Shown piece after piece: positions 116 to 2,554 of a stretch of DNA of 32,572 bases (positions are counted from its first letter, which is position 1; each line of letters begins with the position of its first letter). The stretch spans positions 1-32,572 of the forward strand of contig CADBMC010000106.1 in the NCBI GenBank assembly GCA_902795635.1. Reading direction: 5' to 3'. Made by a program: the position numbers and the translations under genes. The DNA comes from an uncultured Coriobacteriaceae bacterium. Its GTDB lineage: Bacteria; Actinomycetota; Coriobacteriia; Coriobacteriales; Atopobiaceae. The notes below the pieces were generated by a model that made no database searches, was not told where the DNA came from, and saw only the letters and a program-made list of their open reading frames with translations.

Positions 116-322
116 TGGTGCCTCCGAACGGAAACTTGCCATCTGCCCTGCATGCGCCGGATGCGTGGGCCCCTGGGCGACGGCGTCCACAGGACGGCCC
201 GCGAATCTGAGCGCCACATGAATCGTAGCGCTCCTGCGGCATGCATGGCGCCTTATGAGCGCCGCGTCGCGCGTCCGGCCAGGCAGCGGCCCCGAGCAGC
301 GCATAGACTTGCGTTAGGATGC

Positions 323-337
323 CCGCATATCATGCGG
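323..337 (+). repeat. Inverted repeat 1 of response-regulator leader
   Basis: Perfect 6-bp stem CCGCAT/ATGCGG with loop ATC, just downstream of a -10-like TAGGAT. It could be an operator half-site pair or the first leader hairpin. Confidence 0.5.
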
Positions 338-340
338 CTA

Positions 341-370
341 CGCCTGCCCTTGGCATGACGAGGGCAGGCG
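341..370 (+). repeat. Inverted repeat 2 of response-regulator leader
   Basis: Perfect 10-bp stem CGCCTGCCCT/AGGGCAGGCG with a 10-base loop at 351-360. No T-run follows, so it does not look like a classical terminator. Confidence 0.6.
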
Positions 371-378
371 ACGCGGGC

Positions 379-410
379 GGGCGCGTCCTACAGGACTGCA
401 GGACGCGCCC
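379..410 (+). repeat. Inverted repeat 3 of response-regulator leader
   Basis: Perfect 11-bp stem GGGCGCGTCCT/AGGACGCGCCC with a 10-base loop. The left arm can instead pair with AGGAC at 392-396 inside the loop (GTCCT-AC-AGGAC), so two exclusive folds exist. It ends 11 bases before the GGAAGGA ribosome site of the response regulator. Confidence 0.6.
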
Positions 411-434
411 CGCAAGACGTCGGAAGGACATGCG

Positions 435-1181
435 ATGAGGCTTCTTCTCGCAGAGGACGAGCGTGAGCTCAACCGCGCGCTCGTGGCGATACTCAGCCAT
501 GCCGGCTACGAGGTGGACTCCGCCGCAGATGGCGAGGAGGCGCTCTACGAGATCGCGAACAACGACTACGACGTGATCGTCCTCGACATCATGATGCCCA
601 AGGTGGATGGGCTTGAGGCGCTCAGGCGCCTGCGCGCCGACGGCTGCCAGACGCCCGTCCTCATGCTCACCGCGAAGTCGGAGGTGCGCGACCGCGTGGA
701 GGGCCTCGATGCCGGCGCCAACGACTACCTCACCAAGCCCTTCGCCGCGGCGGAGCTGCTGGCGCGCCTCCGCGTGCTCACCCGCGCGAATCCCGCGCAG
801 ACATCCAACGAGCTCACGTTCGCCGACCTCACGCTCGACGTGGACGGCCGTCGCATCGCCTGCGGCGACAAGTCGTGCGACCTCACCCGACGCGAGTACC
901 AGACCCTCGAGCTTCTCATGCGCCAGCCGGGCGACAAGGTCTCGGTGGAGCGGTTCATGCGCAAGGTATGGGGCGGGCTCACCGACGCCGAGCCCTCCGT
1001 GGTGTGGGTGAACATCTCGAACCTGCGCAAGCGCATAGCTTCGGTCGGTGCCCATGTGAGGATCTCCGCCGCGCGCAACGTGGGCTACTTCCTCGAGGAG
1101 GTGCCGGACGAGACCGGCGGCGCATCCGAGGCAGGCCTCGCCGGCTCGGGCGCCAAGGGCGAAGGCGGGAGCGTCAGATGA
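435..1181 (+). CDS. OmpR/PhoB-family response regulator
   Basis: A 248-residue cytoplasmic DNA-binding regulator. The receiver domain (about 1-115) shows the acidic pair E7/D8, phospho-acceptor D51 in VLDIMMP, T79 in MLTAK and K101 in LTKPF, so it should be phosphorylatable. The winged-helix domain (about 126-225) has the usual LTRREYQTLELLM start and an N-I-S-N-L-R-K-R recognition helix. A low-complexity Gly/Ala/Glu tail follows. The ATG at 435 has GGAAGGA six to seven bases upstream. Its stop overlaps the kinase start as ATGA, so the two are translated as a pair. The signal and target genes are unknown; the flanking dehydrogenase is a possible but unproven target. Confidence 0.93.
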   Translation: MRLLLAEDERELNRALVAILSHAGYEVDSAADGEEALYEIANNDYDVIVLDIMMPKVDGLEALRRLRADGCQTPVLMLTAKSEVRDRVEGLDAGANDYLTKPFAAAELLARLRVLTRANPAQTSNELTFADLTLDVDGRRIACGDKSCDLTRREYQTLELLMRQPGDKVSVERFMRKVWGGLTDAEPSVVWVNISNLRKRIASVGAHVRISAARNVGYFLEEVPDETGGASEAGLAGSGAKGEGGSVR

Positions 1182-2554
1182 CGGCAGAGGAGTCATCGGC
1201 CGGAGCCGGAGACGGAACACAAGCCGGCGTCGCCGGCGACGACAACGGAAATGGGGCTGCCGCCAAGCCCGGACTGCTCGAGAGGCTCGGGCTGGGCTTC
1301 CTCGTGCGGAAGGGGCTTGCGGACTCCCTGCGCCGCAAGTTCGTGGCCTACGCGATGGTGGCGGTCACGCTCGTGCTGCTGCTGATCGTGGCGACCATCA
1401 ACCTCTACTTCTACAGCCACATCTGCGCGCGTGCCGACGAGCAGCTCGAGGGCATCGTCGAGAGCGACGGCTCGTTCGCGGCCCTGGTGCAGAAGCAAGG
1501 CGAGGGCGAGGCCTCCATCCTCGGGCTGGGCGACGGGCTTACCGAGGAGACCCCCTATGAGCTGCGGTTCTTCTCCGTGAAGACGGACGAGGACGGGAAG
1601 GTCGTCTCCTGCGACGTCTCGCGCATCGTGAGCTACGACACCGAGAGCGCGGTGGAGGCCGCCGCGAGGGTCGCGGGCTCCGCCAGCACGAAGGGCTTCG
1701 AGGGCGACATGCGCTACCTCATCTCGCGCGAGTCCGACGGCACCGTCATCTACGCCTTCCTGGACTGCTCCCGCGACCTCGCGATGTTCCACGTGCTCAC
1801 GTGCGCGAGCTTGCTCGTGATGCTCGCTGCCCTGCTGCTCGTGTTCGTGCTCGTGGTCGTGTTCTCGAAGAGCGTCGTGCGGCCCATCTCGGAGGGCTAT
1901 GCCCGCCAGCGCCGCTTCATCACCGACGCCAGCCACGACCTCAAGACGCCTCTCGCCGTGATCAGCTCCTCGGCCGATGTCATAGAGATCGAGAGCGGCT
2001 CCTCGGAGTGGGTGGATTCCATCCGGCACCAGGTGGAGCGCATGACGAGGCTCACGAACAAGCTCATGATCCTCGCGCGCATGGACGAGGGGCAGGACGC
2101 GGTCGTCCTCGAGGACATGGATCTGGCAAAGCTCGTCTCCAACGTGGCGGACGACTTCGAGCCCATGTGCATGGCGCATGGGCGCTCGCTCGCGATCGAC
2201 GTCGACGACGAGGTGCCGGCACACGTGGACCCCGCCATGGTGGAGCAGATGCTCATGCTGCTTCTGGACAACGCCATCAAGTACTCCACCGAGGGCGCCG
2301 TCATCCGCGTGTCGTGCGTGCGCAGCCGCAAGGGCCATGCCACGGTCCGCATCGAGAACCCGTGCGACGACATGACGAAGGGCGAGCACCCCGAGCTCTT
2401 CGAGCGGTTCTACCGCTCCGACGAGGCGCGCTCCGAGGGGGACGGAAACGGGATAGGGCTCGCCGTGGTCAAGGCGGCCACGGAGTCCTTGGGCGGCACC
2501 GTCGCGGCGGTGAGCCCGGACGGCTCGTCCTTGAGGATAGAGATCAGGCTGTAG
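1178..2554 (+). CDS. Membrane sensor histidine kinase, HAMP-less type
   Basis: A 458-residue inner-membrane kinase, partner of the preceding regulator (4-base ATGA overlap). There is a disordered N-terminus (1-35), a first membrane helix (about 55-79), an extracytoplasmic sensor region of roughly 125 residues, a second helix (about 206-229), then the H-box FITDASHDLKTPL with H253. The N-box LLLDNAIKYS (N365) and a G-x-G-x-G-L ATP lid (GDGNGIGLAVV) complete the catalytic domain. Only some 17 residues separate helix 2 from the H-box region, too few for a full HAMP domain of about 50. The sensor region has no recognisable ligand motif. The end overlaps the convergent EamA gene by 11 bases. Confidence 0.93.
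   Translation: MTAEESSAGAGDGTQAGVAGDDNGNGAAAKPGLLERLGLGFLVRKGLADSLRRKFVAYAMVAVTLVLLLIVATINLYFYSHICARADEQLEGIVESDGSFAALVQKQGEGEASILGLGDGLTEETPYELRFFSVKTDEDGKVVSCDVSRIVSYDTESAVEAAARVAGSASTKGFEGDMRYLISRESDGTVIYAFLDCSRDLAMFHVLTCASLLVMLAALLLVFVLVVVFSKSVVRPISEGYARQRRFITDASHDLKTPLAVISSSADVIEIESGSSEWVDSIRHQVERMTRLTNKLMILARMDEGQDAVVLEDMDLAKLVSNVADDFEPMCMAHGRSLAIDVDDEVPAHVDPAMVEQMLMLLLDNAIKYSTEGAVIRVSCVRSRKGHATVRIENPCDDMTKGEHPELFERFYRSDEARSEGDGNGIGLAVVKAATESLGGTVAAVSPDGSSLRIEIRL

Follow-up and report, generated by a model that had tools for sequence, protein, structure and literature searches.

Stem-loops located at the 5′ end of a transcript and stabilising the mRNA, such as that of ompA, are known in Escherichia coli. 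In Salmonella, PhoP boxes consist of hexamers 5 nt apart, situated 11–12 nt before the -10 element, and the phoP promoter itself belongs to the architecture I class (PMC3335776).

The window analysed here, a stretch of 32,572 nt, is contig C106 of an uncultured Coriobacteriaceae bacterium, whose genome comprises 1.78 Mb on 225 contigs and has a completeness of 80.8%. Ahead of a two-component system, it contains a direct repeat with a promoter-like site and, downstream of these, two strong hairpins. We give about even chances to the reading that positions 302–333 form an autoregulated promoter, followed by a static, lineage-specific leader of two hairpins that is most likely passive.

The locus and its flanking genes

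The features of the spacer and the two downstream genes are listed in Table 1. A minus-strand gene starts near position 115, divergent from the response regulator gene at 435; thus, both flanking genes point away from the spacer, as had been described. The product of the minus-strand gene resembles a lactate/malate dehydrogenase, judging from a motif, but a Pfam search with the first 38 residues found no domain. Among the NCBIfam families shown, neither the regulator nor the kinase had a match above the curated cut-off. An ORF of 27 codons was also observed at 355–438, with its TGA overlapping the ATG of the regulator gene; no ribosome-binding site was seen before the ATG of this possible leader peptide.

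Table 1. Features of the spacer and of the two-component system genes in the window
Feature	Position	Strand	Basis
Direct-repeat operator CATAGACTTGC/GTTAGGAT, 11-bp period; putative site for the own regulator	302–320	+	Matrix scan
-35-like TAGACT, within the operator	304–309	+	Promoter scan
Stem 1; promoter DNA overlapping the -10, probably untranscribed	323–337	.	Sequence position
Likely -10, TATCAT	328–333	+	Promoter scan; 7 nt past the operator
Predicted transcription start, A, 7 nt past the -10	340	+	Deduced from the -10
Hairpin 2, 5′-terminal in the predicted RNA	341–370	+	Folding, hairpin count
Hairpin 3; arms of 15 nt with one mismatch	379–410	+	Folding, hairpin count
Ribosome-binding site GGAAGGA(C)	422–428	+	Mostly unpaired in the predicted fold
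Response regulator, receiver and winged-helix domains (OmpR/PhoB type)	435–1181	+	Pfam PF00072, PF00486
Sensor histidine kinase	1178–2554	+	Pfam PF00512, PF02518

Inverted repeats in the spacer

The three inverted repeats reported in the preliminary description were confirmed, with the stems and loops given there. Stem 1 (CCGCAT-ATC-ATGCGG) has 6-bp arms and the loop ATC; stems 2 and 3 have perfect arms of 10 and 11 bp, respectively, each enclosing a loop of 10 bases. The spacer has 3 perfect hairpins with arms of at least 6 bp, and stem 1 by itself is unremarkable because 1.38 such hairpins are expected by chance (shuffled spacers). Perfect hairpins with arms of at least 10 bp numbered 2, whereas shuffled spacers had 0.0125 on average; stems 2 and 3 lie far outside what chance would give.

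Folding of the RNA 338–440 gave -59.4 kcal/mol (z -6.33), and none of 200 shuffles was equally stable. For energy ranking, a sample of 202,712 bases was used, made up of 20 other contigs of the genome plus the window. Segment 321–415 had the lowest GC-corrected energy among the 5,029 segments of 95 nt from this genome; on the same scale, 340–434 alone scored -3.8, versus -4.5 for the top two segments. The sample held 22 perfect hairpins with arms of at least 10 bp, 12 of them outside ORF calls that were crude, the start of the window's own response regulator having been misplaced; 5 of these 12 lay between convergent genes, as expected of terminators. Within this list of hairpins, two with arms of at least 10 bp adjoining each other were found only in the window.

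The loop motif of stem 2, GGCATGA, was also seen in strong intergenic hairpins at L102:166–194 and L112:610–639, the former being flanked, like the hairpins of the window, by two genes that appear to be divergently oriented. Genome-wide, the GGCATGA-loop pattern occurred at 15 places, and by reading of the folds comparably strong hairpins were formed only in the window and at the L112 place (L128). With three examples only, the GGCATGA loop as a shared element was taken as coincidence. At the contig end in L102 (1–90), approximately 9 head-to-tail copies of the 10-mer AGCTCTTGGC were observed, apparently in a minus-strand reading frame.

A probable direct-repeat operator shared by orthologous loci

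Among 395 genomes of the order, 14, the present one included, had the two-component system at E ≤ 1e-75. Upstream regions were compared for 14 loci with orthologous regulators. All orthologues are from other genera and show 53–67% protein identity; G001, the other genome of the genus, had no orthologue at the thresholds used. A contig scan gave 80 loci, mostly from Clostridia and the best at no more than 55% identity, which were excluded from the comparison.

The upstream regions of the orthologues share a tandem direct repeat, approximately TTWAGGTTCGC-TTWAGGTT, with a period of 11 bp. The sites for the matrix were initially chosen by eye, and each locus was scored by leave-one-out over the 300 nt preceding the gene (for L099, 163 nt). 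In 10 of the 14 loci the operator stood out, with none of 100 shuffles scoring equally well; in L093, 3 of 100 shuffles did so. Within 300 nt upstream, no operator was found in L088, L091, and L098. Farther upstream, a strong site is present at -351 in L088 and a doubtful one at -406 in L091; in L098, whose protein has the best E-value of all the orthologues, the operator was absent there as well. The distance from operator to gene is variable, as in L088 (see above) and L090 (-278).

In the window's own 300-nt upstream region, 302–320 was the best site, and 0 of 100 shuffles contained one as good. When the matrix was derived solely from sites in the orthologues, 302–320 ranked first among the 65,108 placements in the window, and with a matrix from the five sense-orientation sites alone it ranked second. 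A search of the window with the exact consensus, allowing up to 3 mismatches, gave no match; the operator of the window has diverged and is detected by the matrix only. A regulator of the OmpR/PhoB type (PF00072 and PF00486) is encoded directly downstream, and 302–320 is probably an autoregulatory operator of this family. A second operator-like site was observed in the genome at G000:C92:3423–3454, with no obvious gene behind it.

A TANNNT hexamer (background frequency, 0.0098) was present exactly 7 nt past the repeat in 6 of the 8 sense-orientation sites (window, L084, L086, L087, L088, and L090), a rule that was spotted on four loci before testing, with L086, L088, and L090 added later. Of the other two sense-orientation sites, L089 has a gap of 8 nt and L085 has no such hexamer. 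As a pattern, the architecture of operator, gap, and -10 had one match in the whole genome, at this locus. The best site was in the opposite orientation in L092, L093, L094, L095, and L099, 60–130 nt before the regulator gene; such sites may belong to a divergent promoter or be used for repression.

The promoter scan of 100–460 gave a sole promoter-like site, TAGACT-18-TATCAT at 304–333. The TAGGAT at 315–320, formerly regarded as the -10, is contained in the operator as part of its second half-site; it is probably a half-site of the conserved direct repeat and not the -10. The hexamer TATCAT, lying centrally within stem 1, is the likely -10. With the -10 most likely at this position, stem 1 would not be in the RNA, and its earlier assignment to the leader was revised. 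The promoter map is thereby corrected, and a testable operator is obtained, consisting of the above repeat, then 7 nt, then TANNNT.

Conservation and copy number of stems 2 and 3

Stems 2 and 3 were absent from all 13 orthologue leaders folded (95 nt preceding the start codon; L099 left out), all of which are from other genera, and the z values of these leaders ranged from -2.83 to +0.98 versus -6.42 for the window. Spacers of orthologues without the stems are the outcome that the preliminary description had itself named as refuting its reading. As the two stems are not conserved, any benefit from them is possibly nil. A DNA search across the family gave only matches of 29–30 bases, in G090 and G095, with coding-like surroundings.

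Palindromes of another kind were observed in related genomes. Upstream of the regulator gene in locus L090 (G077:C14), the interval from -216 to -118 holds a 34-bp perfect palindrome with the core GACAGGGGGACAGGTCATTTGTCA. With up to 2 mismatches allowed, this palindrome occurs in 12 of the 140 family genomes, frequently as closely spaced inverted pairs; the site counts are 103 for G064, 81 for G076, 79 for G077, and 31 for G078. The predicted leaders of L088 and L090 are longer because the operator-promoter is located some 280–350 nt upstream. Since the L090 leader holds a palindrome, the window is not alone in having one in such a leader.

These data bear on a possible, though less favoured, explanation, that stems 2 and 3 are a neutral palindromic insertion, REP-like or another relic, tolerated between promoter and ribosome site. 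The stems are lineage-specific, and the palindrome of L090, unrelated and REP-like, lies in a similar leader; therefore, the interval from promoter to ribosome site accepts palindromes. However, the stems are single copy in the genome (81% complete), no second copy having been found, and they had no match in plasmids or phages. Their near-perfect arms suggest recent origin or upkeep, and the arrival of two different palindromes would be required.

It is unlikely that the stems serve as dyad operators through which a symmetric regulator would control this gene or the divergent one. In keeping with such dyads, the palindromes are perfect, the spacer is divergent, and stem 1 overlaps the -10; but stems 2 and 3 are mutually unrelated in sequence, occur once each, and exceed the usual length of operators, and what is conserved is, instead, a direct repeat. 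We regard it as quite improbable that the lineage-specific hairpins set the regulator dose post-transcriptionally, for example via a bound protein or small RNA; if so, a newly gained RNA structure would tune the feedback loop of one species, and its relatives would use the promoter alone.

Predicted fold of the leader

In the predicted fold, the inner pairs of hairpins 2 and 3 had probabilities near 1, and the core of the ribosome site was open with or without the hairpins. A competing fold of stem 3, with AGGAC in its loop, had been suggested as a switch; its energy is -17.8 versus -27.4, about 10 kcal/mol worse. The leader fold is static according to these predictions. No terminator-like site was found in 100–460 on either strand, and no U-run follows stem 3. 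An intrinsic terminator at the stems was rejected, the stem being GC-rich without a U-run, and the earlier statement that the stems are not the terminator of a neighbour is right. The window had no Rfam match at gathering scores to a known structured RNA. The five sub-threshold matches (E 0.099–0.42) were to models of microRNAs, CRISPR repeats, and Pseudomonas RNAs, all unrelated, and such matches at E ≤ 1 are chance-like.

A switchable leader controlling the operon, whether attenuator, riboswitch, or thermosensor, is very unlikely. A strong structure does lie just before the ribosome site; however, this site is open by default and in the model without hairpins, the alternative fold is too costly by the above difference, and riboswitch or attenuator was rejected as a candidate because Rfam matches at gathering scores, a terminator, and the stems in the orthologue leaders folded were all missing. 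A separate small RNA, starting near 327–340 and ending after stem 3, is the least credible explanation. A promoter and a compact structure of about 75 nt speak for it, but there is no U-run past stem 3 and no conservation, and the same type of promoter precedes the regulator gene in orthologues. As regards the three readings offered earlier (cis-regulatory RNA, small RNA, or operator dyads), the stems are real and lie in the promoter and leader, and a switch or small RNA is unsupported.

Proposed arrangement of promoter and leader

In the arrangement that we prefer, an autoregulated promoter with a passive two-hairpin leader, the OmpR/PhoB-family regulator would bind the direct repeat, which overlaps or replaces the -35, and the bound regulator would activate by recruiting polymerase to the TATCAT. 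The RNA would start near A340, with stem 1 staying promoter DNA and stems 2 and 3 making up the first approximately 75 nt of the mRNA, stem 2 beginning 1–2 nt from the 5′ end. If the RNA starts near 340, the geometry would be that of a 5′-protective stem-loop, in which only a few nt separate the stem from the 5′ end. The 5′-terminal hairpin may then hinder 5′-end-dependent decay, and the pair of hairpins may insulate the open ribosome site downstream, with no ligand or temperature switch involved. The hairpins are most likely a lineage-specific addition at the predicted 5′ end of the mRNA, protective or neutral. Conspicuous hairpins in a leader can be confined to one species even where the neighbouring promoter is conserved, and caution is needed before such hairpins are called riboswitch candidates.

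Comparison with known systems

Similar to the window, the REP-like palindromes of the GACAGGGGGACAGGTCATTTGTCA type, from the same bacterial family, include one in a leader interval, that of L090. The window stems are unrelated to them in sequence, and this palindrome, with its 79 sites in G077, has 0 in the window's genome. REP-like elements are recognised by their many copies; the stems are single copy in the 81% of the genome that is represented.

The similarity to the ompA stem-loop is in the stable stem-loop 1–2 nt from the predicted 5′ end, with the ribosome site free downstream. Unlike ompA, the window has two hairpins, and its 5′ end is deduced from the -10.

With respect to the PhoP box (PMC3335776), the repeat of the window is approximately TTWAGGTT instead of (T/G)GTTTA, it lies 7 nt from the -10 (in the register chosen here) instead of 11–12 nt, and it is a candidate binding site. 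Like architecture I, it is a direct repeat with a period of about 11 bp, in direct orientation, that would replace the -35 near the -10.
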